From positions 2,944,979 through 3,008,978 of the forward strand of contig NC_087383.1 of NCBI RefSeq assembly GCF_963675165.1: 64,000 nucleotides of DNA, written 5' to 3'. Made by a program: the position numbers and the translations under genes. The DNA is from Halichondria panicea. Lineage: Eukaryota; Porifera; Demospongiae; Suberitida; Halichondriidae. Below, one piece after another: positions 1,722 to 50,474 of this stretch (position 1 is its first letter; each line of letters opens with the position of its first letter). The notes under the pieces are model-generated. The model was given only the letters and a program-made list of their open reading frames with translations. It was not told the origin of the DNA and made no database searches.

Positions 1722-2468
1722 ACCGTTGAACTCATGGAAAGTCTGAAAAGTTGCTCAGGAAGTTCCATGCAGTCAATTAAAGGAGCCTCATAATTGTAAA
1801 CTTAGGTATATCAACATAATTATTGGCTGATACCTGCTTGTGTAAGACCAGCATTGAATATATTTTCAGGGTTTCCGTTTACGAATCACAGCTCTTGGAA
1901 AGTCAGAAAAATTGTTCAGCAAGTTCCCAGTCGATTAAGGTAACCTCATGCAGAAGAGTGTATCAACGTATTGGCTGCTACCTGCATGTATAAGACCATG
2001 CAGCATTAAATATATTTTCTGGGTTTCCGTTAACGAACCACAGCTCTCGGAAAGTCAGAAAAGTTTCTCAAGTTCCAGTCGATTAAATTAACCGCAGAAT
2101 TGTAAACTTGAGTATATTATATCAACATATAATTATACTGGCTGATATCTGCATGACCAGCACTGAATATATGTTATTTTTCAGGGTTCCCGTTCACAGC
2201 TCTCGGAAAGTCAGAAAAGTTTCTCAGCAAGTTCCGGTCGATTAAAGTAACCTCAGAACAGTTTATCAATGTATTCAATTTGGCTGCTACCTGCTTGTAA
2301 GACCAGCACTAAATATATTTTCTGGGTTTCCGTTAACGAACCACAGCTCTCGGAAAGTCAAAAAAGTTCCTCAGCAAGTTCCAGTCGATTAATTAAAGTA
2401 ACCTCAGAAGAGTATATCAACATACTGGCTGATACCTGCATACATGTCTACATTATATTATTTTTCAG

Positions 2469-2537
2469 GGTTCCCGTTAACGAACCACAGCTCTCGGAAA
2501 GTCAGAAAAGTTCCTCAGCAAGTTCCAGTCGATTAAA
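2469..2537 (+). CDS. Candidate mini-exon, intact copy
   Basis: This core is preceded by TTTTTCAG and followed by GTAACT. It is 69 nt long, so it keeps frame, and reads G-GTT-CCC-GTT with no stop, encoding a Ser-rich 23-residue repeat (VPVNEPQLSESQKS..., ending SRL plus AA). Intron phase 2 on both sides means such exons could be strung together in frame. The phase also matches the acceptors at 4913 and 4934 that precede the main exon of the downstream gene. No transcript evidence is available, so use as an exon is inferred. Confidence 0.35.
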
Positions 2538-3079
2538 GTAACTTCAGAATTGTAAACTTGAGTATATATATCAACATACTGGCTGATATATCTGCATGCA
2601 TATCCAGACTATAGCACTGAATATATTATTTTTCAGGGTTACCGTTAACGAACCACTGCTCTCGGAAAGTCGTTCCAGTCGATTAAAGTAACCTCAAAAT
2701 TGTATATTAAGCCTTATATCAACATAATTATACTGGCTGATATATTTGCATGCATGTCTAGATCAGCACTGATTTTCAGGGTTCCCGTTAACAAACCACA
2801 GCTCTCGGAAAGTCAGAAAAATTTCTCAGCAAGTTCCAGTCGATAAAAGTAACCTCAGAAGAGTATATATCAACATACTGGCTGATATCTGCATGCATGT
2901 TTAGACCAACACTGAATAATTATATTATTTTTCAGGGTTTCCGTTAACGAACCACTGTTCTCGGAAAGTCAGAAAAGTTGCTCAGCAAGTTCCAGTAACC
3001 TCAGAATTGAGTATATATCAACATACAGGCTGATATCTGCATGCATGTCTAGGCCAGCACTGAATATATTATTTTTCAG

Positions 3080-3148
3080 GGTTCCCGTTAACGAACCACT
3101 GCTCTCGGAAAGTCAGAAAAGTTTCTCAGCAAGTTCCAGTCGATTAAA
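3080..3148 (+). CDS. Candidate mini-exon, second intact copy
   Basis: It has the same structure as the copy at 2469: CAG acceptor, 69-nt open core, GTAACC donor, phase 2 at both ends. The shorter 51-nt copy at 2637 is also in frame (18-nt deletion). Neighbouring copies are damaged. The one at 2780 ends in TAA, those at 3565 and 3901 contain TAA, 4386 has a 1-nt and 4557 an 8-nt deletion, and those at 3242, 3395, 3732, 4070 and 4232 lack the acceptor AG. Confidence 0.33.
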
Positions 3149-4913
3149 GTAACCTCAAAAGAGTATAATTATTATATCAACATACTGGCTGATATCTGCA
3201 TGCATGTCTAGTAGACCAGCACTGAATATGTTATTTTTCTGGGTTCCCGTTAACGAACCACAGCTCTCGGAAAGTCAGAAAAGTTGCTCAGCAAGTTCCA
3301 GTCGATTAAAGTAACCTCAGAATTGAGTATATATCAACATACTGGCTGATATCTGCATGCATGTCTAGACCAGCACTGAATATGTTATTTTTCTGGATTC
3401 CCGTTAACGAACCACTGCTCTCGGAAAGTCAGAAAAGTTGCTTAGCAAGTTCCAGTCGATTAAAGTAACCTCAGAATTGTAAACTAATTGAGTATATATC
3501 AACATACTGGCTGATATCTGCATGCATGCATGTCTAGACCAGCACTGAATATATTATTTTTCAGGGTTCCCGTTAACAAACCACTGCTTTCGGAAAGTCA
3601 GAAAAATGTCTCAGCAAGTTCCAGTCGATTATAAAAGTAACCTCAGAATTTTAAACTTGAGTATATATCAACATACTGGCTGATATCTGCATGCATGTCT
3701 ATAGACCAGCACTGAATATATTATTTTTCTGGGTTCCCGTTAACGAACCACTGCTCTCGGAAAGTCAGAAAAGTTGCTTAGCAAGTTCCAGTCGATTAAA
3801 GTAACCTCAGAATTGTAAACTAATTGAGTATATATCAACATACTGGCTGATATCTGCATGCATGCATGTCTAGACCAGCACTGAATATATTATTTTTCAG
3901 GGTTCCCGTTAACAAACCACTGCTCTCGGAAAGTCAGAAAAATGTCTCAGCAAGTTCCAGTCGATTATAAAAGTAACCTCAGAATTTTAAACTTGAGTAT
4001 AATTATATCAACATACTGGCTGATATCTGCATGCATGTTTAGACCAGCACTGAATATATTATTTTTCTGGGTTCCCGTTAACGAACCACTGCTCTCGGAA
4101 AGTCAGAAAAGTTTCTCAGCAAGTTCCAGTCGATTAAAGTAACCTCAGAATTGTAAACTTGAGCATAATTATACTGGCTGATATCTGCATGCATGCATGT
4201 CTAGACCAGCACTGAATATGTTATTTTTCTGGGTTCCTGTTAACGAACCACTGCTCTCGGAAAGTCAGAAAAGTTGCTCAGCAAGTTCCAGTCGATTAAA
4301 GTAACCTCAGAATTGAGTATATATCAACATACTGGCTGATATCTGCATGCATGTCTAGACCAGCACTGAATATATTATTTTTCAGGGTTCCCGTTAACGA
4401 ACCACTGCTCTCGGAAGTCAGAAAAGTTGCTCAGCAAGTTCCAGTCGATTCAAGTAACCTCAGAATTGTAAACTTGAGTATAATTATATCAACATAATTA
4501 TACTGGCTGATATCTGCATGCATGTCTAGACCAGCACTGAATATATTATTTTTCAGGGTTCCCGTTAACGAACCACTGCTCTCAGAAAAGTTTCTCAGCA
4601 AGTTCCAGTCGATTAAAGTAACTTGAGTATATCAACATAACTTATTGGCTGATATACTTAATTGCTTGTATTATAGACCAGGATTGAACATTATTATTCC
4701 AGTTCCCATTCTATAATCATGGCTCTCAGAAAGTCAGAAAAGTGGCTCGGCGTGTTTCAGTATAGAGCCAAATAACCTCTGGACAATAAATTGGGAAGTA
4801 TAAGTAGGAGTTAGGTGACTGGCTGAATTAAAAATGATAATCATACTAAATCTAGCTCAGTGTACAGACCTAATTAATTCATTGTGCATGTAGCTAGCTA
4901 GAGTCTCTTCCAG

Positions 4914-6124
4914 CACTACTGATTCTCTATGCAGTGATGAAAGTTTTGAAGAGGTGTTCATGAAGAATGAAAGTGGAGATGGAGAAATAATCTTGTTGCC
5001 AAAGACTAAGGCTATTACTCCTGGCAAATCAGCTAGATCTAGATACACTACTGACAGCGGTACCCAAGTCCCAGAAGAAGCTTTGAACGGAGACAGTGTT
5101 GTAGGGTTTTTCTTCAATTGTCTGTCTAGCATAGGTGAGGAAACAACAATACAGAGATCACCAAGAGGCCAGAAGGTGTTGATTGTATTAGCCGAACTCA
5201 AAAAGGGTGATCCCAAATACCTCGCTGACATTGCCATCACCCTCCTTTCAAGAGTTTACTCTTGTATTGCTGCTGGAAAGACTTACAGACTACCATCTAT
5301 CTCTCAAGCTTGTGTATGGAGGTTATTCCACCAAATGAGAAACTCAGAAGGTGTAAGAACTTTATGGAAGAACTTTATTGCTCTACACACTTTCCTTGCA
5401 GCCGAATCTAACCTAACCCTCCAACTCCTGCTAGATCAAATGTTGAAAGCAATGTTGAAGAACGAAGCACAAGCCTCGGCTGTCATTTCTTCTAGTACTG
5501 TGCCCCCCCTTTCACCACGAGAGAAAAATGCAGTGCGTTATATGGCTGGTTATGTGGTAATTTCTTTGCTGAGGAAATTCAAGCGCCCTGTGAAGAAACC
5601 CGTTTTACAGGAGAAGTATAGAATTTTTATAACAGTGCTCTCTCAACTGAAGGCGGAGCATCAGCCAACTGAAATCGACTCCCTCTCTGACTACACAAGA
5701 CTGTGGTCTGAATTGATCGACAGAGGAGGACTCTATCATGTCAGTGATAAAGTGAGTATAGTTTTTTTTGTTAATTAATTGTAATTTCATTCCATTCAAT
5801 TAGGTTTTTGAGTTGATTGAAGCTGTTGAGATGGTAGTGCGCGGCCATTTACATGTATCCAGTGTGAGTTCCCAGTCCTTGGATAAAGATCACTCCAAGG
5901 AAATACTTAAAGATGCTCTAAACTCAAGAAACCTTCTGGAACAATGGGAACAGATAGCTGACAGTATACCCTCCAAGTATGAGCAGTATAGTATTGACCT
6001 GCTGTCCGCAATTATAACCTTGTGGACAACAGTCCGGGGGCATTCTTTTGCAAAAGGATGGACCATGAACTTCCAAAATAAATATACTAAAGGTGTGCGA
6101 AAATCTTTAAAAACAACAGGCTGA
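4914..6124 (+). CDS. Two-exon gene, putative transposon-associated protein
   Basis: The first visible exon runs 4914-5751 (open from 4894; acceptor CTTCCAG before 4914, with an alternative at 4935). A GT-AG intron of 52 bp (5752-5803) follows, then exon 5804-6124 ending in TGA. The join is phase 0 and the reading continues smoothly, giving about 385 residues. No ATG is needed at 4914 because upstream exons are likely, perhaps including the mini-exon array. Visible motifs are REKNAVRYMAGYVV mid-protein, DRGGLYHVSDKVFELIEAVE across the splice junction, and a basic tail GVRKSLK. The YMAGYV and RGGLYHVSD motifs resemble C-terminal parts of transposase-related proteins of P/THAP9-like elements. 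That is a family-level impression, not a firm assignment. The gene ends 177 bp from the end of the convergent P-like transposase gene, which suggests one two-gene element. The coding frame has no lesions. Confidence 0.7.
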
Positions 6125-6300
6125 CATAATTATTACTTTGAGTCTATATTGTGTTATCTTTTTAATGTATGTGCATGCATGATTAATTTTATGCTAACGA
6201 TGCATATCAAATCATGTACAATTAATTTGTATTACAGCACACTTCAATAATTATATTATGTGATCCATTTGTTAATGGCAATTATAAGAAATGTTAAATA

Positions 6301-9149
6301 TTAATCGGACATAAAGGTGTTACGAGGTCGTTTTTGAAGTGGCTCTGACAACTTGCCAAGGGAGGAGTTCTCGCTTTCAATGTTCATTGTTTTTATATCT
6401 TTGTAAACGGCTCTCTGTTGAATGAGTGTGGATGCATTGTAAGGGACTTGAGCTGCTGTGGGGTTTTCATTGCTGCCTCCACGGTGCCTCTGCTTTGAGA
6501 AATAGCGCTCGAGAGGGTCTTGCGAGAAAACCTCACTTAACAGATACTCTACTCCTGGCAGAGCAAGCAGCTTTGGAGCAAGTTCAGTGAATGATGTCAC
6601 TGGAAAAAAAAAGTGACATTAGTTGCTTATTAAATCAGTATAATTATACCTGTGATTCTGAATCCTTCAATGGTTTCAGCACTCAACCCCATTTTCCGTT
6701 GCTCCTTCTTACTGACTCCAGGAGTACTTGCTATCTCCTGCTCCCACTCGTCCAAATATTGGAGGAATACATCAGTTAGCCACTATAAAAATGATTAACT
6801 TGTAAAGAAGTATTATTTCTGGCTGTGAATGTATATCCGTATACTAGATTATAGTTGCCTAACCACCTGATAATGTACGCATACCTTGAACCGCTCATCT
6901 CTTGGACTCCTGTACGGTGCCCTGCTTTCCTTCCTCTTCCATTGAGACATTAGTGGGCTCTTCACATTAAGATAGTTGAAAAAACGATCAATCATCCTAA
7001 TAAAGAGATGGGTCTGTTGGGTCCCCTCGTTGTCAAAGTATTCCAGACAAGTTGCAACACTCTCACTCATTATCTATACAGTCATGCATGTATGGAGCAA
7101 AAGGTTTAGTATAAATTATAATAGGAACTATTATTGTCTATACTGATTATATACCTGGGCAGCCAAATAGACTCTCATGCGGCTGTATGACGTGAGCCAT
7201 ATATGATCTCTAGTCAACTTGTGACAAAGCCTGACTCCCATTGTACTTGTGGATGTTTCTGTCAGGTAGAGACTCTCAATTGACTTCCAACTAATCACTT
7301 GTCCCTTTTTCTAGAAAAGCAATGCAACAGATACGTAATTATGTAGGCTAGCTATTAATTATAATATAGTCTACCTGCATCTTCCGACTTCTTGAATGTG
7401 AGAAAGAGTTGCTGAAACAGTTCCTGGTTGTTTTGAGCAAGTGAGGGGCATCAGAGAAGAAGTATAGATCCTTATCCTCTCTGTATGGATTGACACATTT
7501 GTAGGGCAGGTTTCTACTTCCTTGTGGCTGACACAGGCGGTAAAACCGCCTGTTCGGTTTAGCACCATCACTGGTTAGAGAGGTCACTGGTATGCCATAA
7601 AGCTCTAGACTCTTGACCACTTCCCAAACTATGGGAAAGATTTTCTCGCCTGCATGCATGTGTGAATGATTTAAGATGCATATGATTATATATAGCATAC
7701 AAAAAAATGCATGCATGCATGGATATAGTATATATAATTATATAGAATGATGCATGTACCAGAAAGGGATGTACTGAAGTAGTGAGCCACAGGAATCGCG
7801 ATGGTTGGCTTGAAAACAGCTCTTGCTAGGAATACAAAGGCGTGGTCAGCTAGGGTCTTGTCAGTCTTGGCAATACCATCACTTAGCACCTTCTCGATAT
7901 CAGCATTGACACTACCAAGGTCCACAAAGCCGGTTAGCTGGCCACTGTGTTTGTTGAACACTAGGCCGTTCTTGATCTTCATCTCGTCCATGGACAGGGA
8001 AACATTGTGTGGTTTAGAGAGCAGCTCACCCTCCAGAATCTCTTTCAACTGCTCAACGAACTCATATTGCACTCCAGAGTGTGGGGTGGTCCAGTGGGTG
8101 TAATCTGTAAGAGTGCGCTCCGAAGGCAATTTGATTATACCGGATTCACGAACAGCTCGATAAGCTGTTGAAGAGAGGTATTTAAGATTTAATGCAAACC
8201 AAATTACCAGGTGCCACTTTATTGCTCTTTTGTTCGCTAGAGAATTGTATTGAAGCTGCTGCTCCCAAAATATTCTCTGTGGGCTATCAACGGGGAATTC
8301 TTTCTCTATGCGAGGAGTTGCTTCATTCATGATGCTTGACAGGTCAGAGGAATCATCTGGCTGGAGCAAAACACCACTCTTCTCAATAAGCTCTTTGATC
8401 TTGTCTTCCAAACGTTTGTTTCGCTGCTTGACTTGTACAAGCGACTTGTGCATGCTCTTCATACGAGCATTTTTCTCACTTGGGTCAAGAGCAGAGTACT
8501 TGGTATGGCTGGTAGCTTGGGTACGATTTGATTCTTCAGCATTTTTCTGACGGCTATTCGCACATCTAAGTGTGGTACGGACATCTTGACAGACTTTGCA
8601 TCGACTAGGTTCACTGCTAACTCTTTCACAGAGCAAGTCACAGCCTACTTTTCTCACAGTTGAGGGGTGTTGTCCACTCGTATCAATGTAAGCAACAGCA
8701 ATTCCAGATCCTCGCTCACTCTGAATGCTACCACCCCTTTTCTCAACAAGGGAGATGAAGTGGTTCTCTGGGTTTCCAGGACAAGGAATAGCAGTTTCAA
8801 CTACATTCATTACAGCTGATGGGGACTCAACAGTTGATGGGATATCTCTCAACAGCCTACATGTAGTTGGGAGTTGCTTCATGTTGATAAATACTTGCCA
8901 TGATAGATCAGACTTCACAGTGATTGCTTTTCCCAATCGAAGCGCATTTTCCGTGCCAACTTGAAACTCGTATAGCTGAACACTAGAGCTATTGGAGATA
9001 CACTTCCAAAAGGTAGAAATAGGCAACGACAATACGGTTTCAAAGTTGAAGGAGGATTCTTCTTCTACTTGTACCGGTGCTTGTGTGTTTTTCTTGGGTC
9101 TATAAAAATGGGTACGAGCTCCCTTTCGCTTCCTCTTGTGATATGGCAT
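6301..9149 (-). CDS. P-element/THAP9-type transposase, 6 exons
   Basis: Exons, high to low: 9149-7760, 7649-7375, 7310-7155, 7073-6885, 6782-6650, 6599-6301. All introns are GT-AG, 61-110 bp long, and phases agree throughout, giving about 814 residues with no internal stop. The N-terminus (MPYHKRKRKG) is basic. A Cys-rich segment follows at 170-195 (CDLLCERV, CKVCQDVRTTLR), then a probable coiled coil at about 230-258. The RNase H-like core has SMDEMKIKNGLVF (D388), GFVDLG (D410), TSDGAKPNRRF (D491) and YFFSDAPHLLKTTRN (D530). The last exon has FSQDPLERYFSKQRHRGG, the family's usual C-terminal motif. The expected activity is cut-and-paste transposition. No THAP zinc finger is visible. An acceptor (CACATTTTAG) lies directly before the ATG, so a 5' non-coding or additional coding exon may exist upstream. 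The intact frames suggest a young or selected copy. Confidence 0.85.
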
Positions 9150-10040
9150 ACCTAAAATGTGTATGTTAAAATACATAATTATAATAATTTACTCTGCATG
9201 CATTCAATACATTTGTTTTTCACCACAAAAAGACACACTTTTTTGAAATGCCAAAACACATACTGAGGGTTCAAACACATTCTCCTGGTATAAGGACATC
9301 TATATTATTGAATGACCACATCAGTTAAGTAATGGAGCTTTTTGTTGGCAAAATCGCCTAACCACAAGATGAGTACCGTTAAACACCTAAATTTGGCCTA
9401 TCGCTCTGCTTGCTGCTAGCCTTATGTATTTCCTTAAGTGTTGAATACATTCTCCTGGTAGTTCACTTCATAGACTAACAGGAAAGCAAGAAGAAATGCT
9501 CCAACCATACACCCAACCAAAAATCGCCTAACCACAAAGTTATCACTTAGTAAGTTACAGGTAAAAATGAGCTCCAAAAGGCTATCCACTAATAATGCAG
9601 GCTCAATATACACGCTCCATGATAGACTTACCTCCCACCTACGAGACAGAGCAGACCCTCCCCTCAACAGAAGCCTCAAATGTGCAGCTGTGCAAGAAAA
9701 CAACCCTAAAAGTGTCCATTTCTGCAGCTGGTTGCCGTTGCAGTGAGTGAACACGAATACTCCGTAATCTACCCGTATACTACCTACGTTTCACATCCAC
9801 GGAGTGTACAGTATCTATGGCTAGAGTAAACAATGGAACTTCGCACGACACGTATTTTCGAACGATTTAGCACCACGGTAAGCAAAAACAAACAGCGTTA
9901 TGCAGAATCTGACCCGACACAAGCCGACTTACATGCCTTAGGAACAAGCTGGGCTGAACAGCAACTTCGCAGCCCTTGCAATGATGACGTAATAAGCCAG
10001 AAAACAAAAGTGTGCGATAGTTGGAATTTCGACAAAAGTA
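9150..10040. other. Upstream region of the P-like transposase, paired short repeats
   Basis: Two motifs occur twice each with identical 170-bp spacing: ACATTCTCCTGGTA at 9277 and 9447, and AAAATCGCCTAACCACAA at 9350 and 9520. The sequence between them is not conserved. These could be transposase-binding or promoter elements. An open stretch from 9833 (MELRTTRIFERFSTT) stops at a good donor (GTAAGC at about 9878) but cannot be tied to any gene. Confidence 0.4.
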
Positions 10041-11139: not shown

Positions 11140-13382
11140 TGACAATTTAAATGCATAGAGAAAAGTAATGAAGTATTATATACTAATTATGTTAGACGCT
11201 ATAAAAACAAATGTTGTTAATTAATTACAACTTGTCAATAGCACAGCAATAACAAAGGCTTCTCCTTGGTAACAATAACAGACACACAGACAGCTTTACC
11301 GTATCCCTCGTGCGGCTACGCCTCGAGGCATAACAAGGGCTTCTCCTTGGTAATAATGATAAATGCTCACATGCACAGTAAATTGTCAATGAACACATGC
11401 AAGCAATTTGCTAGTGAAAATCCAATTTAACGCTCTGATGCCTTTTGTTCATATAATTATGAGGAAGATGAGCAAATTAACGTTCACTTTAGCCCTCCCA
11501 AACATCTTCTAAACATCTTCATGATTGCCAGGCCCTCGTATTGCAGCTGAAGGAGGTCCTGTGTGGGGAGAAGAGAGGGCAGTGAAACACTTCAACTGGT
11601 GTAAGACAAATGAATACATGTACTTACATACACCGTACAAGCACAACACTATATACCTGACACAAGGCAGTAAATTTCTTGAACACTTTACGTACCTACA
11701 CACACACCCTCACCTGGAGGACCAGCTCCACCTTCTCTATCTGCCTGATGTGATCTCAAACACAACATGTCCGAACCTGAACCTGGGCGAGTAAGAAATA
11801 ATGTTCACATAATTATAGCATAACGTTGCACATAAGATCAAGGCCGTAGCAAGCGGTCAGGCTGGTCAGGTTTTGGCCTAACCACTTTTAGCAGCTGGGT
11901 AGGTAATGGTCGTAAATATTGTAAGTGATAGTGCGCATGCTGTTTTGGTGAGGAAAAGTGATGACGTTAGATAAAAAATTCACCACTGTACAAAAGTTCC
12001 AATAGTAGAAATCAGCTGACCTTTAATTGTACTGACCACTTTAAAGTTGCTTGCTACGCCCCTGCATGAAGATTAGGGCATAAAAATAAGTTAATAGCCT
12101 CACACTGGAGGAATTGTTAAAGTCTAGATTAGTAGTAGAGTCTGAGCTTCAGTCAAACAGTGGACAAAGTACGTACCAGAGCAATTAATGGCACATGTGA
12201 TGATGATCATGTTGTTTAATAGAAGTATGCTAGTATAACGGCTACTCTCACTCAAGTATACGGAGACTCACAGAGTGGGTGGAGCATATCTCCATGAACG
12301 CTGATGTATGGATGATTGGCTTGGTCACGTCAGAGTACTTGTCGATACCCAGCCTTCTGTCCAGGGGGTCCACTGTCCATGCTCGCAAGAACTCTCTGTG
12401 GGGGGTACAATGAGTGTATGTATGTTCATACCCTCTGCATGGCAATGAAAATAGCTAATGTGCAATTTAGATCATACGATACTTTAGTAGAAGGTAGAAA
12501 CACACATGGCATCATCACATGACCATCATTCATACATACACACTTTCAACTATTTGACTACAAATTCAGTTTTGGTTATCACATTTCTTATACCTAAACT
12601 TCTTGAAGGTGTCCGAGTGTACGGGTACATTACTGACAGGGCAGCACTCTCAGCCTCAAACTGTGCAAAGGAACAGGAAAAACACGATAAAATCTTAAAC
12701 CAACAGACAATAATCATGGAAAGTTAATAATTTTCTGCTGATTTGGCATTTTTTACCAATAAACACTTATCTAGTCCAGTACTAATTTAATGTACATAGA
12801 TGCAGTGCATAATGTAGGCCATAATCTGTGCAGGTATACTGTACCACTTTTATCACCTGTTGTTTGTAGCACTCAAATATCTACCCCATTGGCACACTGC
12901 TCTGCTCCAACTCCTCACAGCGATCCAGTGCCTTCTTGAGCTCTTCCTTCATCACAAGTCTCTCTTGCACAGCAGACTGGGTAATAGATTGCATGGTGGT
13001 CATGTACACACACTGGTATACAGATACAACCATCACAACATCGTGGTAGTGGTACAGTAGTTATATAATTGCAGGTACATGTATTAATGAAAGCACCGCG
13101 GGTGCTGATGCCTCGGTGGAGGTGCAAAGCTACATAACATAAAGCTACACACATTATCATCATGAATATTTTTGCATTTTTGCTGCATGCAAACTCAAAT
13201 TGCATGGTGGTCGATCATGTACACACACACACACACAGGTAATACAACCACCATGTGGTAGTGGTACAGCTGTTTGCTCACTGCATTACCACAAAACAAC
13301 AAAATACCATACAATGTTGCTATGCAAACAACATGTGGTTCTAAGCAATGATGGCTTCTAGCACTTGTATGTTAAATGGGTA
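11140..13382 (-). pseudogene. IQGAP-like fragment cassette I1
   Basis: Minus-strand exon-like blocks, high to low. 12990-12880 is a coiled-coil exon (QSAVQERLVMKEELKKALDR). About 12662-12595 is a 67-nt exon (FEAESAALSV). About 12405-12270 (EFLRAWTVDPLDRRLGIDKY, then SDVTKPIIHTSA) resembles the part of the IQGAP GAP-related domain containing DEYSDLV and KPVIYIS. 11790-11716 ends QIEKVELVLQ. 11558 downward (DLLQLQYEGLAIMKM) is the conserved C-terminal end of IQGAP (RasGAP_C). An 11-bp duplication (AAACATCTTCT) shifts the frame in the last exon, and the 11790-11716 exon lacks a block that copy I3 retains. Full IQGAPs are over 1,500 residues, so these are remnants. The coiled-coil exon also occurs in the kinesin cassettes. 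The cassette resumes at 17345 after the transposon insertion and is the sister of I4. Confidence 0.7.
11839..12064. mobile_element. hAT-like MITE inside the IQGAP-like cassette
   Basis: The ends are inverted repeats: CAAGGCCGTAGCAAGC on the left and GCTTGCTACGCCCCTG on the right. The flanks CATAAGAT (11831-11838) and CATGAAGAT (12065-12073) look like an 8-bp target-site duplication with one indel. It is too short to code for protein. The same insertion is present in I2 (~30217-30455), I4 (~48625-48855) and I5 (~61930-62170), so it predates the duplications. Confidence 0.6.
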
Positions 13383-13388
13383 CTTTTT

Positions 13389-13660
13389 TATGGAACGCCA
13401 AATAGGTCAAAAATACATCCCACTTCAAGGGGGTGTCTCACACATCTATCGGTTGCTTTGCACACATCGATCTTTACCCACTTGTACACTTTTGACATCT
13501 ATTGACTACTTGACATTTATCGACTACCTGACATTTATCGACTAATTGACATCTATCGACTACTTGACATCTACTGCTACGTATACTTACATCTATCAGC
13601 TAGTTGACATCCATCAACTACTTGACATCTATCAGCTACTTGACATCTATCGACTACTTG
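13389..13660. repeat. Left terminal inverted repeat and subterminal tandem repeats
   Basis: Roughly the first 115 bp match the right end (17338 reading leftward) almost base for base. From about 13490 a 17-18-bp unit related to GACATCTATCGACTACTT is repeated about nine times with small changes. Dense subterminal repeats of this kind are usually transposase-binding sites. Confidence 0.85.
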
Positions 13661-13714
13661 AGGTTAGTATCCTTTTAGTGAAGTTAGTGTTACAATATTG
13701 ATTTAATGTTATAG

Positions 13715-15207
13715 GAGATCGAGGATGCCTTACTTAAACAGGCTTTGACAGAGAGCAAGCAACCTGATACTCAACATAAATCGTAAGCTTTAAATTTCAC
13801 TATAACACTTTTTATACCTGTACTGTGTGCAGTGTGATGGTCAGCTCTCTTTCTTGCTTGCATGCTGAAGCTTCTGTCTGAGTATCGGTTCAAGGAATAT
13901 CATCAGATCCCAATACGACGCACTCATGTGTTAGTAGATGCACTCAGAGCTGCAAGGCGGCCTGCATTTACAAGCATCAAGACATTGACGGTTAGAATAA
14001 GGATTAATGGTGTATAAACACTCTACATTATGTTCTAATTAAGGTTCACTTTGTAAGTGAGGAAGCAGAAGATGGTGGAGGCCCATCCAGGGAGTTTTGG
14101 TGCCTGTTGGGGAAAGAGATAGCTCAGTCCATGTTTGAGGGCCATGAGAACAGTAAGGTTGTGCGGCACGATTTATTGGCTGTGCAGGTATTTTGATGTA
14201 AAAGTGTGTATGCGTAGTCGCTGACATACACTTTTTTATACAGGGTGAGAAGTTTCTTCTCGTAGGAAAATTGATGACCATGGGAATCACTCAGGGTGGT
14301 AGTGGTTTCTCCTTTTTTGGAAGTAGTCTCTACGCATACTTGTGTGGTGTTAAAATCTGTGATATTGACATACCTGATGAAGAAGTACCAAATACTAACG
14401 TCCGGATCCTTATTCAGAAGGTATATAATATTATCTATAATAATTATGTGTATAATTCAACACTGTACCTGCAGATCAATGATGCTGCTGATGACAAAGA
14501 CCTAAAAGATTGTATCCTTGATGAATGTGACACCATTGTGAATGCCGGGTACAGCAAGCCACTTTTTACCTCGACGCAAGCAGACAAAATTGAGATAGTG
14601 AAGACACTAAAACTCTACTACACTCTTCTCGAGTCTTTAGCAGAGATTAACCAGCTCAAGGAGGGATTGCAAGTGAACGGTGTGGGAGAAGCAATTGTGA
14701 AGTACCCTGAACTAATGAGGCCTCTATTTGTGGTAAGTGTCGTGTGTAACTGGTAACCATAATTAGTTTTGTTGTAATTATTGCAGAGACCATGAAGGCC
14801 ATGTTCAAAATCACCCACTTTTCACCTAAGGGCTCAAATGATCTTGCTAAAGAAGAGGCTACTTACATGCTGTTTGTAGATTTTCTGTACGATTGCATGT
14901 GAATGTGTTGAAGGTATGAACTATAATTGCAGTGTGCCTGTTATCATTAGGCTAATACTGTAGGTGACTCGGAGGATTCTGTCAGTCTTAAGACCATTCT
15001 TTCTTTTACTACTGGTTCAGAGTCTGTTCCACCGATGGGATTTGATAACTCTTTGGGTCTGAGATTTAACGATACCAATGTGTTTCCCACGTCGTCCACT
15101 TGTGCGTTGGAGCTAACCCTGCCCTCCAAGTATTATAACAATCCAGAGGAGTTTAAAAAGAAAATGGTATATGGTATGAAAAACCATGGAGGATTTGGTT
15201 GCCTATA
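13715..15207 (+). CDS. HECT-domain E3 ubiquitin-ligase-like gene in the transposon
   Basis: Exons: 13715-13782, ~13833-13990 (open in HECT frame from ATG 13862), 14044-14187, 14244-14420, 14475-14732, 14787-~14915, 14951-15207. Introns are GT-AG and 50-75 bp. The first exon (EIEDALLKQALTESKQ) looks like a ubiquitin-interacting motif. The N-lobe has IPIRRTHVLVDALRAA and EEAEDGGGPSREFW. The C-lobe ends TTGSESVPPMGF, then STCALELTLP with the catalytic-type Cys codon at 15101-15103, then GGFGCL and a stop. HECT C-lobes accept ubiquitin on this Cys and pass it to substrates. At least two 1-nt frame lesions (13833-13862 and near 14787) mean this copy is probably defective or the exon model is wrong there. 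Its role in transposition is unknown; it could modify host repair or silencing proteins. Confidence 0.8.
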
Positions 15208-15383
15208 AGCACTGCAATAAAATGAACATATACTCTTTTTGTGTTTGACAAAACCTATTAACCCTGTATCACTTTCATACTTTATCATGATTCTTTCGAA
15301 CATATACTCTTTTTGTGTTCTATTCACCCTGTATCACTTTCATACTTATCATGATTCTTTCAATATCATTATGTTACATCATT

Positions 15384-16870
15384 CTAAATAGACAGACATC
15401 TAGCTACTAAGTCTTTGGTGCGACCAAACAACAATATGCCATAGTCATCACAAACAGCAAGTGGGTTCACCTCTTCTTTAAGCATACTAAACTGTGCATC
15501 AGACAGTGGGCAATTAGTGCTTGGGACTGCAACCCCATCTTGGGACTCGATACAAGGGAGGCCGTTCCAATCTATTCCATAATCTCCCTGTAATAATAGT
15601 TAGGAAATAATTAAACACAATGCTTATACTCTGACCCACCAGTTTCAAATACATTTTGTACATCGTACTACATGCACAGACTTCGTAAACTAATGAAGGT
15701 AAACACATCACTAATACTTACAATTGATGAATCATCCAATACTCCTTGTAATGCTGCTCCATCTGTTGTTAGTGAGGTCATTCCCTCTATCCAAAGCTGG
15801 TATGGCGTCCTATTGCCTTCAGTTCTCAATCTGTGATGGCTATAGCTCTCGCGGAAAACATTTAGTTGTTGTTGAATACGTGGAAGAAACACAAAGTGTA
15901 ATGCAAATATATCCACTTCATCTGTAGGATCTAATAAACTGTTGTCTTCGAGAGCATAGAACAACCGGTAAAACATACACAGACAACCAACAAATACGTC
16001 TCTCCACAATCTTTCGATCCGTTGGTTGTGGACACTTTTCCCTACAATACAGCTACCTCTACCAGGACCTCGTTCAGGATTTGAAAGCATGTATTCTGAG
16101 ACTTTAACGTTTTCGCCTCCTTTATCACACCGCACACGTGCAGGTAAACCATAACAAGAAACAGCGTGCAAAAAACACTGTAGTACAGTCTCAGATTTGT
16201 TGTTAGTAGACGCTTTTAAATAGATTGGTAATCGAGAAAAACCATCAATGCCTCCATGCACTACTATTCTCCAGCGTATTAATTTGTGGTGCCCATCTAT
16301 GTGCCACAAGCTATTAGGCATAGGTACACTATATCTCCTGCGGTGTAAGGCTCGTCTCAGACGTCTTTGTACTCCTGTTTCATCAATACGAGAAAGGCTC
16401 TCTCTTACTCGATATCGTTGTATTCTTATCCCTTTCCCTCTTAGATAACCATCATAAGTATTTTGTCCACTGTTTGGAAACTGGTGAACAAAATCAGCAG
16501 TAATAATATCCAAGTCAGATTCGGAGATGTCTGTGCGCTGTAATTTGTTTTCAAATCCAAACTGTATTATTCTTCGCTTGACAGTGCTCTCAGATACATG
16601 AAGCACGTGTGCAATATCTCTAACTCTAAAATCAAACGACAAAAGGTGCTCCAACTGAGTCTCAGACACGTTCACACAAGGTCTCCCTCTTCTGTGACTA
16701 TCTCTTAGGCAATTTACTTCAATATACTTATACACTTCTGTTACTGCATCAACAATGGCATCTCCACACCCAGCTGGAAACAAGTCAGAGGCATAAACAA
16801 CAACTTCGAGAATGTCTTCACACTGATGAAGTAGACTGTGCACATTGGAAGTTCCTTGTTCATCTTCCAC
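15384..16870 (-). CDS. Integrase-type (rve-like) DDE transposase
   Basis: Exon 16870-15722 (383 codons, no internal stop), GT-AG intron 15721-15588, and exon 15587-15384 ending in TAG, together about 450 residues. Residues 80-105 ([19 protein letters not shown]) form a helix-turn-helix. The catalytic core has [13 protein letters not shown] (D192), [11 protein letters not shown] (D249) and [13 protein letters not shown] (E286), giving a DD36E spacing as in retroviral/IS3-type integrases. [17 protein letters not shown] is characteristic of a family of animal integrase-core proteins. The last exon ([27 protein letters not shown]) is its usual C-terminus. The reading opens without ATG. A likely N-terminus ([19 protein letters not shown], from ~16944) is in another frame, so a 1-nt lesion or a missed short intron lies near 16885. 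Confidence 0.85.
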
Positions 16871-17094
16871 TTGAATAGTCCTTATACCATCTCCAATATT
16901 GTTAGAAACTCGATCATTTCATCAGAGCTAACATGAAGAGCCATGACTAGACTAGATTACTACTACACGTACACTGCACTGTACTACTTCTCACAGGTAC
17001 GTAGGTACATGTACTCTGACCTAACATTGGACCATGCCCTGTGGGGTGGGGCTACAATGGGTGGGGCCACGCCAACTAGATCATGTACATGGAT

Positions 17095-17338
17095 AGTGTC
17101 AAGTATAGTTGGGCGGATTCCAACTAGTGTCAAGTAGTATCATATCGGATAGATGTCAAGTAGTTGATAGATGTAAGTATACGTAGCAGTAGATGTCAAG
17201 TAGTCGATAGATGTCAAGTAGTCGATAGATGTCAAAAGTGTACAAGTGGGTAAAGATCGATGTGTGCAAAGCAACCGATAGATGTGTGAGACACCCCTAT
17301 GAAGTGGGATGTATTTTTGACCTATTTGGCGTTCCATA
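17095..17338. repeat. Right terminal inverted repeat and subterminal repeats
   Basis: Inverted copy of the left end. From 17338 leftward the match to 13389 rightward is nearly perfect for over 110 bp, then continues as about four GACATCTATCGACTACTT-type units before diverging near 17140. Confidence 0.85.
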
Positions 17339-17344
17339 CTTTTT

Positions 17345-19515: not shown

Positions 19516-19635
19516 TACATCATATCCATTTTGATCTAGCACATGGTACAGTTCAAAAGTTCAGACAGGAGATGTACATACACAAAATGGATGTGTACAA
19601 TTATTATATGATACCCTTTCAAATTTAAACCTTAC

Positions 19636-20252
19636 AACATAAGCAGTGCATGTACATAGTGGGACCATAGGCAGTGCATGTACATAGTGGGACCATAGGC
19701 AGTGCGTGTACATAGTGGGGCCATAGGCAGTGCGTGTACATAGTGGGGCCATAGGCAGTGCGTGTACATAGTGGGGCCATAAGCAGTGCATGTACATAGT
19801 GGGACCATAAGCAGTGCATGTACATAGTGGGACCATAGGCAGTGCACGTACATAGTGGGACCATAGGCAGTGCGTGTACATAGTGGGGCCATAGGCAGTG
19901 CGTGTACATAGTGGGGCCATAGGCAGTGCATGTACATAGTGGGGCCATAGGCAGTGCGTGTACATAGTGGGGCCATAGGCAGTGCGTGTACATAGTGGGG
20001 CCATAGGCAGTGCGTGTACATAGTGGGGCCATAGGCAGTGCGTGTACATAATGGGGCCATAGGCAGTGCGTGTACATAGTGGGACCATAGGCAGTGCGTG
20101 TACATAGTGGGGCCATAGGCAGTGCGTGTACATAGTGGGGCCATAGGCAGTGCGTGTACATAGTGGGCAGTGCGTGTACATAGTGGGGCCATAGGCAGTG
20201 CGTGTACATAGTGGGACCATAGGCAGTGCATGTACATAGTGGGACCATATAG
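19636..20252. repeat. 28-bp minisatellite, about 21 copies
   Basis: Repeats of a 28-bp unit (CAGTGCATGTACATAGTGGG, then ACCATAGG, with A/G changes). One unit is truncated near 20165. The minus strand has no stop in any frame, so spurious open frames of 200-242 codons appear in all three. Because 28 is not a multiple of 3, the frames rotate through one 28-residue period. It is the same satellite as 50475-52790. Confidence 0.95.
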
Positions 20253-20328
20253 GATATCCCCCTTCCCCCCTGTATGACACCCTGCTCACCCTTTAGAAGA
20301 CTGCCCCCCCCCATACACACACACTCAC

Positions 20329-21145
20329 CCCTCTAGAAGAATGTCCAACCATAGCCTTAGGAGCTGTCTCCCTCCTCTTAGCAATCACTCCATCGATGTG
20401 CGTCATCTTGAGTACCTCATTTCGACTAATCTTGGACGCTAGATGCAGCACACCCGCCACTGTAGCATGTAGCACCACTCTGTGATGTGCTTCAAGGCCT
20501 TTCTCCTTCACAGCAAGCTCTTGCAGCTGGTGTAGGAAAGACCAGTATATCTGAGAGCCCTTGATAAAAGAATTCCAGTGTCAGGAGAAATACGAGTTGG
20601 TAGAAAGCGAGTGTGTTAGCAGGGCTAGTGCAGAGAGCTTTGGCCAGTTCCAGGAGATTGGTGAAGAGGAGTTGACTGTTTTAGAGAGGAATTCTTTCGA
20701 AACCACACCCAGTGAGAGCCCGACAGCCTCCAGACTCACCCAATCACTGCACAAGGGGAGGGAGGAGTTAACGGTGCAGTACTCTATAAATACGTGTACA
20801 TGTAGCTGTAAGCACTGTACACCATAATTATACACAACCACACTATCATTGATTGTGTACACGGTGAAAATTAAGACAAAGCTCAAAATATGCACACACA
20901 TGTACTTACATGTATAACTGACAAGTATGCCTCAAATGCACACTGAACATAGCAAGGTACACACACACATGCACCACGTACGTGTCGAGAGGAATCTTGT
21001 CTTTGTTGGCATGGTGATCTACGAGACAATGCCAGAGTAGGGCGATATCCAGCTGTTGCCCTGGGAACGCCGTCTCTAGCACTGATGCGTGACAGGTGTC
21101 AGCCACCACCCTCAAACACTTGACCAGGGAGGTAGTCAACATGGG
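20329..21145 (-). pseudogene. Partial EFR3 copy (3' exons)
   Basis: Two minus-strand blocks match the 3' exons of the EFR3-like gene at 53.9-59.4 kb: 21145-20982 (CHASVLETAFPGQ joined to LDIALLWHCLVDHH) and 20746-20329 (AVGLSLGVVSKEFLSKT, SPISWNWPKLSALALLTH, HHRVVLHATVAGVLHLASK). The first block has lost 54 bp in frame relative to the 54.5-kb copy. The second has a 1-nt deletion after ALLTH, so it cannot encode the full segment. The 5' exons are absent; beyond 21290 the sequence switches to kinesin fragment K0. Confidence 0.8.
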
Positions 21146-29657: not shown

Positions 29658-29814
29658 AAACAAATCAGTTGGAATTGGTCAATATAGCACAGTAATAATG
29701 ATGGTTTAAATTCAATTCTCCCTACAGTGTGTCACAGAGATCTGTACGTATAAAACTGTCAATGAACACAATTTGCTAATGGGAATCCAATTTAACGCTC
29801 TGTCGATTTTGTTA

Positions 29815-31375
29815 ATGAGGAAGATAAGCAGATTAACGTTCACTTTGGCCCTCCCAAACATCTTCATGATTGCCAGGCCCTCGTATTGCAGCTGAAGGAG
29901 GTCCTGTGTGGGGAGAAGAGAGAGCAGTGAAACACTTCAACTGGTATAAGACAAAGAATGCATGTATTTGTAAGACAAATGAATACATGTACTTACATAC
30001 ACCGTACAAGCATACCAACACTATACCTGACACAAGGCAGTAAACTTCTTGAACACTTTACGTACCTACCATCTACCTGTACACACACCCTCACCTGGAG
30101 GACCAGCTCCACCTTCTCTATCTGCCTGACGTGATCTCAAACACAATACTTTCGAACCTGAACCTGGGCGAGTAAGAAATAATGTTCACATAATTATAGC
30201 ATAACGTTGCACATAAGGTCGTAGCAAGCGGTCAGGCTGGTCAGGTTTTGGCCTAACCACTTTAGCAGCTGGGTAGGTAATGGTCGTAAATATTGTAAAC
30301 TTGTGATAATGCGCATGCTGTTTTGGTGAGGAAAAATGATGACCTTTTTCTTAGGTAAAAAATTCACCACTGTATGCAAAAGTTCCAATAGTAGAAAAGC
30401 AGCTGACCTTTAATCAAGTTGGCCTGACCACTTTAAAGTTGCTTGCTACGCCCCTGCATGAAGATTGGGGCATAAAAATAAGTTAATAGCCTCACACTGG
30501 AGGAATTGTTAAAGTCTGGATTAGTAGTAGAGTCTGAGCTTCAGTCAAACAGTGGACAAAGTACGTACCAGAGCAATTAATGGCACATGTGATGATTATC
30601 ATGTTGTTTAATAGAAGTATGCTAGTATAACGGCTACTCAAGTATACGGAGACTCACAGAGTGGGTGGAGTATATCTCCATGAACGCTGATGTATGGATG
30701 ATTGGCTTGGTCACGTCAGAGTACTTGTCGATACCCAGCCTTCTGTCCGGGGGGTCCACTGTCGATGCTCGCAAGAACTCTCTGTGGGGGGTACAATGAG
30801 TGTATGTATATTCATACCCTCTGCATGGCAACGAAAATAGCTAATGTGCAATTTAGATCATACGATACTTTAGTAGAACACACATGGCATCATCACATGA
30901 CCATCATTCGTACATACACACTTTCAACTACAAATTCAGTTTTGGTTATCACATTTCTTATACCTAAACTTCTTGAAGACGTCCGAGTGTACGGGTTCAT
31001 TACTGACAGGGCAGCACTCTCAGCCTCAAACTGTGCAAAGGAACAGGAAAAACACGATAAACTCTTAAACCAACAGATATAACCAGACAATAATCATGGA
31101 AAGTTAACGATGCTGATTTGGCGTTTTTCACCAACAAATAATATTTAGTCCAGTACTAATTTAATGTACATAGATGCAGTGCATAATGTAGGCCATAATC
31201 TGTACAGGTATACTGTACCACTTTTATCACCTGTTGTTTGTAGCACTCAAATATCTACCCCATCGGCACACTGCTCTGATCCAACTCCTCACAGCGATCC
31301 AGTGCCTTCTTGAGCTCTTCCTCCATCACAAGTCTCTCTTGCACAGCAGACTGGGTAATAGATTGCATGGTGGTC
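29815..31375 (-). pseudogene. IQGAP-like fragment cassette I2
   Basis: Same blocks as I1: coiled-coil exon 31375-31255, FEAESAALS exon ~31030-30960, GAP-domain exon ~30790-30665 (EFLRASTVDPPDRRLGIDKY), ~30160-30090 (QIEKVELVLQ) and the last exon from 29903 (DLLQLQYEGLAIMKM, then NVNLLIFLINK). The last exon is intact here, without the I1 frameshift. The exons do not join in compatible frames (FEAES leaves phase 1, the GAP exon needs phase 2), so the cassette is not a working gene. Confidence 0.7.
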
Positions 31376-32167
31376 ATGTACACACACACAGGTATACAGA
31401 TACAACCATCACAACATCGTGGTAGTGGTACAGTAGTTATATAATTGCAGGTACATGTATTAATGAAAGCACCGCGGGTGCTGATGCCTCGGTGGAGGTG
31501 CAAAGCTACATAACATAAAGCTACACACATTATCATGATGAATATTTTTGCATTCTTGCTGCATGCAAACTCAAATTGCATGGTGGTCGATCATGTACAC
31601 ACACACACACAGGTAATACAACCACCATGTGGTAGTGGTACAGCTGTTTGCTCACTGCATTACCACAAAACAACAAAATACCATACAATGTTGCTATGCA
31701 AACAACATGTGGTCCTAAGCAATGATGGCTTCTAGCACTTGTAGGTACTTTTTGAGAGTTACAAAAATGGCTAATCTGCGAGACCCTCAAAAATTACCCA
31801 CTATAAGGTGGCATCAATATTAACTGATACAGTACCCGAAATGCAACTTTTATATGGGGAAAAAAAGGACAATAGTCTCTAGACACAATCGGCATCATGT
31901 ATTGTGTATTTTGCCTAAGCCTTAATCAGTACATACTGTATAGCAGGTCATTTTCGTGGGATAAAAAATCCGAGACAAAAACGTAGGCGTGGTGCAGCAG
32001 TGATTTTGTGTGTAAAAATTCCCTTTGCTTCACTGCATTGCATGCGTTCCGGTCAACCATGCCTACGTTTTCGTGAGTGATAAATATTCGTCAAGGTTTA
32101 GCTTGCCCACGGAAACTCTACCCAGGACGCTATACGTACGGTACGGTATACTGTACCACTTTATCAC

Positions 32168-47640: not shown

Positions 47641-48249
47641 TGCTTTTTCTGCACGAAACTCAGGACCAATTCTTCCTCAAGAAATTAAAAGTAGAATGCA
47701 CTCATTTGCATGTACTCTTGCAGTTTCAAAATATTCAAAATCAAAAAATATATAAATTTCTATCGATTTGAAATTCTGCCCAAAACAAATTTAAATTGAT
47801 CCAAAGATCCACTGACCTTGAATGAATACTGTATATGCATCTTGAATGAATGTATTGTAATCTGAATGAAAATATAACATTAATTTTGAATTTTGAAACA
47901 AACGGCCCACCATACACCATAGCAAAAACACATTGATTTTACAATGTAAAAGGGTGGGCCAGCTCAGCACAATTCAAATAGCAATCAAAATTCCAGGCTC
48001 TTAAACGAATAGGACTATTATATCATTCAATGACAATTTAGAGAAAAGTAGCGAAGTACATAGTATGTTAGAACATTAGGTCGTTAATTAATCAATTGCA
48101 ACGTGTCAATAGTACATGCAGATGATATAAATAATTGAAGAATGCTCACATGCAATTGTCAATGAATACATGCAATTTGTTAATGAAATCCAATTTAACA
48201 CTCTGAGGATTTTAAAAGTTCATGAGGAAGATGAGCAGATTAACATTCA

Positions 48250-49805
48250 CTTTGGCCCTCCCAAACATCTTCATGATTGCCAGGCCCTCATATTGCAGCT
48301 GAAGGAGGTCCTGTGTGGGGAGAACAGAGGGCAGTGAAACACTTCAACTGGTGTATAAGACAAAGAATGCATTTATTTGTAAGACAAATGAATACATGTA
48401 CTTACATACACCGTACAAGCATACCAACACTATACCTGACACGAGGCAGTAAACTTCTTGAACACTTTACGTACCTACCATCTACCTGTACACACACCCT
48501 CACCTGGAGGACCAGCTCCACCTTCTCTATCTGCCTGACGTGATCTCAAACACAACACTTCCGAACCTGAACCTGGGCGAGTAAGAAATAATGTTCACAT
48601 AATTATAGCATAACGTTGCATCAAGGTCGTAGCAAGCGGTCAGGCTGGTCAGGTTTTGGCCTAACCACTTTAGCAGCTGGGTAGGTAATGGTCGTAAATA
48701 TTGTAAGTGAAATGCGCATGCTGTTTTGGTGAGGAAAAGTGATGACCTTTTCCTAGGTAAAAAATTCACCACTGTATGCAAAGTTCCAATAGTAGAAAAA
48801 CAGTTGACCTTTAATTGTTAGTTGGCCTGACCACTTTAAAGTTGCTTGCTACGCCCCTGCATGAAGATTGGGGCATAAAAATAAGTTAATAGCCTCACAC
48901 TGGAGGAATTGTTAAAGTCTAGATTAGTAGTAGAGTCTGAGCTTCAGTCAAACAGTGGACAAAGTACGTACCAGAGCAATTAATGGCACATGTGATGATT
49001 ATCATGTTGTTTAATAGAAGTATGCTAGTATAACGGCTATACTCTCACTCAAGTATACGGAGACTCACAGAGTGGGTGGAGCATATCTCCATGGACGCTG
49101 ATGTATGGATGATTGGCTTGGTCACGTCAGAGTACTTGTTGATACCCAGCCTTCTGTCCAGGGGGTCCACTGTCGATGCTCGCAAGAACTCTCTGTGGGG
49201 GGTACAATGAGTGTATGTATAATATTCATACCCTCTGCATGGCAACCAAATAGTTAATGTGCAATTTAGATCATACGATACTTTAGTAGAAGGTAGAAAC
49301 ACACATGGCATCATCACATGACCATCATTCGTATATACACACTTTCAACTATTTGACTACAAATTCAGTTTTGGTTATCATATTTCTTATACCTAAACTT
49401 CTTGAAGGCGTCCGAGTGTACGGGTTCATTACTGACAGGGCAGCACTCTCAGCCTCAAACTGTGCAAAGGAACAGGAAAAACACGATAAACTCTTAAATC
49501 AACAGATATAACCAGACAATAATCATGGAAAGTTAACGATACTGATTTGGCGTTTTTCACCAACAAATAATATCTAGTCAGTCCAGTACTAATTTAATGT
49601 ACATAGATGCAGTGCATAATGTAGGCCATAATCTGTACAGGTATACTGTACCACTTTTATCACCTGTTGTTCGTAGCACTCAAATATCTACCCCATCGGC
49701 ACACTGCTCTGCTCCAACTCCTTACAGCGATCCAGTGCCTTCTTGAGCTCTTCCTCCATCACAAGTCTCTCTTGCACAGCAGACTGGGTAATAGATTGCA
49801 TGGTG
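48250..49805 (-). pseudogene. IQGAP-like fragment cassette I4
   Basis: Same order as I1 and I2: coiled-coil exon ~49805-49690, FEAESAALS ~49457-49390, GAP-domain exon ~49200-49075 (EFLRASTVDPLDRRLGINKY), ~48575-48505, and last exon from 48310 (DLLQLQYEGLAIMKM). It lacks the 11-bp duplication of I1. The right flank to 50475 matches the I1 flank on both sides of the transposon and supplies its empty site. Confidence 0.7.
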
Positions 49806-50474
49806 GTCATGTACACACACAGGTATACAGATACAACCATCACAACATCGTGGTAGTGGTACAGTAGTTATATAATTGCAGGTACATGTATTAATGAAAG
49901 CACCGCGGGTGCTGATGCCTCGGTGGAGGTGCAAAGCTACATAACATAAAGCTACACACATTATCATGATGAATATTTTTGCATTTTTGCTGCATGCAAA
50001 CTCAAATTGCATGGTGGTCGATCATGTACACACACACACACAGGTAATACAACCACCATGTGGTAGTGGTACAGCTGTTTGCTGACTGCATTACCACAAA
50101 ACAACAAAATACCATACAATGTTGCTATGCAAACAACATGTGGTCCTAAGCAATGATGGCTTCTAGCACTTGTATGTTAAATGGGTACTTTTTGAGGGTT
50201 ACAAAAATGGCTAATCTGCGAGACCCTCAAAAATTACCCGCTATAAGGTGGTATTAATATTATAGTAAATGCTCTCACGATCTACTCTTGGTGGTATATA
50301 TGGAAACTCACATACAAATTATGGTGAGGATCTGAAATGGAGAATGGGCGGGGACTAGCTTGCATATACCAGCAGATATGATATACATGTAGATACTAAC
50401 CGTTCACTGAATGTATGGAAAGCAGTGTGAAGGCTGAAGAAACTGTTAGTACGAAGTACTGCAAAGGACATCAA

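Follow-up and report, generated by a model that had tools for sequence, protein, structure and literature searches.

Recurrent pairing of a DDE transposase with a HECT ubiquitin ligase gene in IS3EU-type transposons of the sponge Halichondria panicea

Many IS3EU-type DNA transposons of the demosponge Halichondria panicea carry a DDE transposase together with a gene for a HECT ubiquitin ligase, a recurrent two-gene design of which we are highly confident. We analysed a 64,000-nucleotide stretch of sponge DNA (C7:2944979–3008978, hereafter the window) in a 131.5-Mb assembly of 39 contigs. A sequence-only reading of the window had proposed a transposon with its own HECT gene. The proposal stands and the arrangement recurs, in 9/9 transposase-bearing copies of the element's family and at 71 of the 114 listed related loci, which suggests that HECT is a lasting part of these elements and not a chance pick-up.

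The window element begins with TATGG, ends with CCATA, and is flanked on each side by the 6-bp target-site duplication CTTTTT, so that the exact ends and duplication claimed for it were recovered. Its terminal inverted repeats are present, but the 115 bp quoted for them is too short, as they extend over 149 nt at 96% complementarity and can be aligned across 189 columns at 92%. The element and the sites related to it are as follows (window coordinates).

13383–13388, left target-site duplication, CTTTTT
13389–17338, whole IS3EU-type element, short form, decayed copy, 3,950 bp
13389–13537, plus strand, left terminal inverted repeat, with subterminal 18-bp repeats
17190–17338, minus strand, right terminal inverted repeat
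17339–17344, right target-site duplication, CTTTTT
49795–50480, paralogous empty site with its junction near 50188, joined flanks 96.8% over 692 columns
31362–31822, second paralogous empty site, joined flanks 95.3%, spanning the junction

The empty site noticed at about 50190 was thus found again, with the joined flanks matching across the junction, and a second one was added. We call both sites paralogous because they belong to a block of about 2 kb that has several copies in the window. This block occurs three times (11381–13388, 29754–31822 and 48154–50262; 91–95% identity), and the element is located at the end of the first copy. The window also contains a P-element-like transposase remnant (7686–9188, minus strand), a 500-aa frame that matches PF21787 (TNP-like RNase H) with an E-value of 1.1e-12 and the P-element HTH at sub-threshold level, as well as long tandem arrays at 1736–4761, 19561–20332 and 51373–52781, seen as overlapping self-matches or repetitive three-phase frames.

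Judged by its TATGG..CCATA ends, 6-bp duplication and IS3/IS481-like transposase, the element is assigned to the known IS3EU superfamily, and it is not new as a transposon. In the available account of the superfamily, TA..TA termini are found in every complete IS3EU family and a 6-bp target-site duplication in most, and Repbase held 45 IS3EU families in 2022 (PMC10045372).

The transposase lies on the minus strand and is, as had been read from the sequence, of the integrase type with a DD36E triad. Specifically, its main frame matches PF24764, and residues D208, D265 and E302 do not vary among 15 aligned sequences, with a D265–E302 spacing of 36 residues. The transposase protein P0003 matches the NCBIfam models for IS481 (E 7.4e-14) and IS3 (E 7.4e-7), both far under the model cut-offs. 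The window transposase contains a single frameshift near the N-terminus; the ATG of the sister-copy transposases is upstream, at 16944, and is out of frame in the window copy.

15668–16918, minus strand, main frame of the DD36E transposase, 416 aa (PF24764, E 1.6e-83)
15384–15587, minus strand, possible last transposase exon, GTAAGT donor at 15716–15721, splice sites assigned by eye

The HECT gene lies on the plus strand, convergent with the transposase. To map it, we projected the 11 HECT exons of sister copy C7b onto 10 copies of the family. Exons 1–4 are missing from the window copy, and the remaining exons are arranged as follows.

13715–13782, plus strand, exon 5, UIM-like stretch (element coordinates 327–394)
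13833–13990, plus strand, exon 6, with a 4-nt insertion that breaks the frame (element 445–602)
14044–14187, plus strand, exon 7, start of the HECT N-lobe (element 656–799)
14244–14420, plus strand, exon 8 (element 856–1032)
14475–14732, plus strand, exon 9, 3′ end 28 nt short relative to C7b (element 1087–1344)
14787–14913, plus strand, exon 10, with a 4-nt insertion that breaks the frame (element 1399–1525)
14964–15208, plus strand, exon 11, C-lobe, STC motif (Cys codon 15101–15103), stop (element 1576–1820)

The frame at 14951–15208 (plus strand), which contains the STC motif, matches PF00632 with an E-value of 2.1e-12, and exons 5–11 joined past their lesions reach 52.5 bits against a cut-off of 23.9. 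The cysteine of the STC motif is the C-lobe cysteine that HECT ligases carry in a TC motif. The anatomy claimed for this gene, multi-exon and convergent with a cysteine-bearing C-lobe, therefore holds, but the gene is not intact. Both the HECT gene and the transposase frame are broken in the window copy, and working genes there were rejected on account of missing or frameshifted HECT exons and the broken transposase frame. From these lesions, some of which are common to sister copies, we conclude that the window copy is dead and was probably mobilised in trans.

The family of the window element comprises nine two-ended copies of 2.9–5.9 kb and one interrupted copy on C1 (L030). All nine two-ended copies have TATGG..CCATA ends. 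Exact target-site duplications flank seven of them (six of 6 bp, one of 7 bp), while the duplication of C11 matches at 5/6 bases and that of C23 only after 3 bases are skipped. Copies with the same ends and transposase that lack HECT, which the sequence-only reading had named as evidence of a one-off capture, were looked for; every one of the nine transposase-bearing copies contains HECT exons, and C12b, the tenth copy, combines HECT exons with a transposase remnant of 40 residues. Three short elements (L031–L033) are similar to the family in their ends only, at 76–86%. At L030 (C1:13637000–13645500), a TATGG..CCATA element of about 0.95 kb is inserted in the terminal repeat of the family copy, and the HECT part of that copy contains another insertion.

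Exons 1–4 are absent at one common junction in six of the ten copies (window, C23, C12a, C8, C11 and C1), which indicates that a shortened form was mobilised repeatedly. The window, C23 and C12a copies also have in common an exon 6 insertion of equal length and a transposase frame broken near the N-terminus, and the window and C12a copies a shortened exon 9. Since the same HECT truncation and transposase frameshift recur at different loci, damaged copies were moved, and neither protein therefore need come from the moving copy. Among the nine transposase-bearing copies, only C16 has an uninterrupted 425-aa transposase frame by comparison with P0003. The least damaged HECT gene is that of C5, in which all 11 exons are open but one splice donor is changed and exon 2 has an in-frame deletion; projection of the C7b exons revealed no family copy whose HECT gene is free of damage.

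A genome scan with PF24764 gave 234 candidates, of which 150 were scored, and 156 matches; the 150 matches listed merge into 114 transposase loci. With the first two HECT match sets, one stripped of further exons of loci already counted and the other used with all its 95 rows, a HECT match lies within 4.5 kb at 45 of these listed loci, 42 of them convergent. Adding a diverged HECT type (L042, L044, L047 and L054) raises the number to 71 of the 114 within 4 kb, where about 2 of 114 are expected by chance (224 HECT rows counted separately, about 9.5 kb each). In the final pairing, 29 of those 95 rows were kept, the others having proved distant from every transposase, and rows of a later set that repeat a locus were left out. 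The orientation of the 71 pairs is convergent in 64 and tandem, with HECT downstream, in 7; none is divergent or has HECT upstream. For two tandem cases (C5:4162791 and C6:6890847), the HECT match is part of an adjacent convergent pair. The remaining five, listed below, may represent a different gene order.

C4:2654326, tandem, HECT downstream on the same strand
C4:3499349, tandem, HECT downstream on the same strand
C15:5971502, tandem, HECT downstream on the same strand
C7:4194422, tandem, HECT downstream on the same strand
C14:4670576, tandem, HECT downstream on the same strand

Ten transposase loci were picked, mostly without a match in the first HECT scan. HECT is present in five of them (L042, L044, L047, L048 and L049) and was not found in the other five (L041, L043, L045, L046 and L050). 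Four diverged elements are complete, three with HECT and one with another companion gene. In particular, L038 and L039 (one family) and L040 have TATGG..CCATA ends with transposase and HECT both inside; L039 and L040 keep exact target-site duplications, and that of L038 is degraded. L050 contains a complete IS3EU-type element (1965–6887) with TATGGCGTGC ends and the duplication CTCTTT, whose companion gene on the opposite strand has no significant Pfam match and is not HECT by Pfam. Given this different companion in L050 and the 43 of 114 listed loci at which no HECT match lies within 4 kb, elements of the superfamily need not carry HECT.

Related transposases also occur at five loci in prokaryote assemblies. 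One of them, L054 (contig QPIL01000069.1, from a MAG of an Iophon sp. symbiont), carries a transposase and a convergent 371-aa HECT frame, and its contig is probably sponge DNA in a symbiont bin. L052, L053 and L055, from the MAG of a Poecilosclerida symbiont, carry IS3EU-type transposases. No HECT was found in these three, whose only matches are to a piece of transposase that had entered the start of the L049 HECT model; its absence says little because the contigs are only 3.4–4.2 kb long. The transposase contigs L052–L055, all in sponge-symbiont MAGs, are probably host DNA in bins. L056 is a weak transposase match in a Chloroflexi MAG. Pattern-based scans of viral contigs returned no relative of the transposase and none of HECT.

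The HECT domain is recognisable across the families. PF00632 is matched by four of five family HECT models, and a profile of the five families aligns over both lobes with the solved structures of E6AP, HUWE1, TOM1, AREL1 and others. In the diverged type, L054 lies above the Pfam cut-off of 23.9 bits (28.5), whereas L042 (22.8), L047 (22.5) and L044 (20.6) lie below it. The TC motif is present in all ten HECT models, of 11, that reach this part of the C-lobe, and in family D by another model. We consider it quite probable that the HECT protein of intact copies is catalytically active. The predicted structure of the HECT domain has a mean pLDDT of 32.

Fuller copies add an N-terminal beta-grasp-like domain, a C2HC finger and a UIM-like stretch. 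The beta-grasp assignment (ubiquitin-like or PB1) is only suggestive. The finger ligands, C-x2-C-x11-H-x3-C, are invariant in the five family models, and we take their spacing to be that of the UBZ ubiquitin-binding finger. The Pfam matches of the N-terminal parts, to zf_C2HC_14 (E 0.0052) and UIM (E 0.24), each occur in one of five models and are below significance. A HECT query of the protein database returned two proteins, both from H. panicea, one of which NCBI names 'apoptosis-resistant E3 ubiquitin protein ligase 1-like'. Of 7,992 candidate proteins scored with the five-family profile, 4 matched, including the N-terminal pieces P0124 (75% identity) and P0125 (39%).

Between families, pN is 0.39–0.51 and pS 0.76–0.83 for HECT, and 0.35–0.44 and 0.77–0.91 for the transposase. 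Both genes look constrained in the long term; as synonymous sites are saturated, these raw proportions are a sign of constraint and give no exact ratio. The close pair L035/L036 has no synonymous excess, with a pN/pS of 0.99 over all codons in models that are mis-spliced there. Within the window family, single-codon changes are 21 nonsynonymous to 9 synonymous in HECT and 23 to 6 in the transposase, where the expected ratio is near 3, and these few differences give no departure from neutrality for either gene, as expected for decaying insertions. The suggestion that HECT might show purifying selection thus finds no signal within the family, but between families the proteins can still be aligned although pS is saturated.

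The two genes are partially congruent. Pairwise distances of HECT and transposase correlate across 11 elements with r = 0.30 (28 of 20,000 permutations), in a comparison whose HECT models lack the N-lobe for B and the C-lobe for D. Both trees unite L042, L049 and L054 and pair A with B; the remaining branches disagree, and support in the transposase tree is low.

We propose, with moderate confidence in the proposal as a whole, that this is an IS3EU-type family whose usual design is a convergent DDE transposase plus a HECT E3 ligase with its own N-terminal parts, and that the ligase is a trans-acting nuclear enzyme. The N-terminal parts would draw it to ubiquitin-marked targets such as ubiquitylated chromatin or repair foci, where it would ubiquitylate a host factor of silencing or repair and thereby improve expression or mobilisation of the element family. 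The identity of the target as such a host factor is a tentative part of the proposal. Its main competitor, which we regard as doubtful, is that the ligase targets the transposase or strand-transfer complex, either for clearance by a host unfoldase and the proteasome after joining or to limit transposase dose. MuA/ClpX is a precedent, and the genes stay paired and diverge partly in step, as partners would; however, several tree branches disagree, and HECT types are more diverged (11–21% identity) than their transposases (32–45%). This faster divergence of HECT and its ubiquitin-oriented N-terminus lead us to prefer, modestly, a host target.

HECT might instead be a passenger that plays no part in transposition and at times passes from one element to another. 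Mobilised copies do include some in which HECT is damaged, 43 of the 114 listed loci have no HECT match, and no constraint is seen within the family, but the fixed convergent layout recurs in 64 of 71 pairs and the domains can be aligned despite saturated synonymous divergence, and we consider this reading improbable. Far less credible is that ordinary host genes next to transposase insertions supply the HECT exons, as the NCBI names of some exons as ordinary H. panicea loci might imply: HECT lies between ends with target-site duplications in the window family, L039 and L040, and near-identical HECT copies are present on many contigs of the genome, which refutes the idea for the window element's family. 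Single HECT loci may nevertheless have been domesticated. That a single element picked up a host HECT gene just once has practically no standing and is refuted for the Halichondria genome by HECT in the nine copies and at 71 of the 114 listed loci, with L054 probably adding a second sponge.

Our literature search found no description of a transposon-encoded HECT ubiquitin ligase and no paper combining IS3EU with HECT; a Repbase annotation of HECT in IS3EU may exist. The impression that a DDE element with HECT was undescribed accords with this search for HECT as a second gene, for which no earlier description was found, but not for the transposon, which belongs to a known superfamily. With a transposon group that keeps a ubiquitin ligase, it would become possible to test directly whether transposons control the modification of host proteins, and transposon-borne HECT genes would provide a set of divergent HECT enzymes. 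Furthermore, some annotated sponge HECT genes are transposon genes, so that counts of gene-family expansion can be distorted.

The sponge proteins have the HECT domain in common with the HECT E3 ligases E6AP, HUWE1, TOM1 and AREL1, but are transposon-borne and have a different N-terminus. The transposase/HECT design is probably also that of numerous fish and cnidarian genes annotated as G2/M phase-specific E3 ligase-like. Some eukaryotic DNA transposons carry OTU or ULP proteases, likewise genes of the ubiquitin/SUMO pathway; those proteases remove the modifier, whereas the sponge HECT would attach ubiquitin. IS3EU/GingerRoot elements, as far as they are described in the available accounts, resemble the sponge element in their TATGG..CCATA ends, 6-bp target-site duplication, long terminal inverted repeats and IS481/IS3-related transposase. 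Unlike the sponge elements, those in the IS3EU accounts are described in main texts from which the words HECT and ubiquitin are absent (PMC10045372, PMC12730594). The TET-bearing IS3EU elements of rust fungi have 6-bp duplications and TAYGG..CCRTA ends, and an alpha-kinase gene in opposite orientation to the transposase is found in all TET-bearing IS3EU families (PMC12730594). Their second gene thus lies opposite the transposase as in the sponge element, but the fungal companions are an alpha-kinase and a TET/JBP dioxygenase where the sponge companion is a HECT ligase (PMC12730594). We suggest tentatively that the IS3EU elements of sponges, and perhaps of animals more widely, belong to one lineage whose second protein is a ubiquitin ligase of ancient origin, dedicated to these elements. 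Acting in trans, this E3 would read ubiquitin marks through its N-terminal parts and alter host chromatin or the transpososome, as the ubiquitin counterpart of the fungal alpha-kinase and TET/JBP genes.
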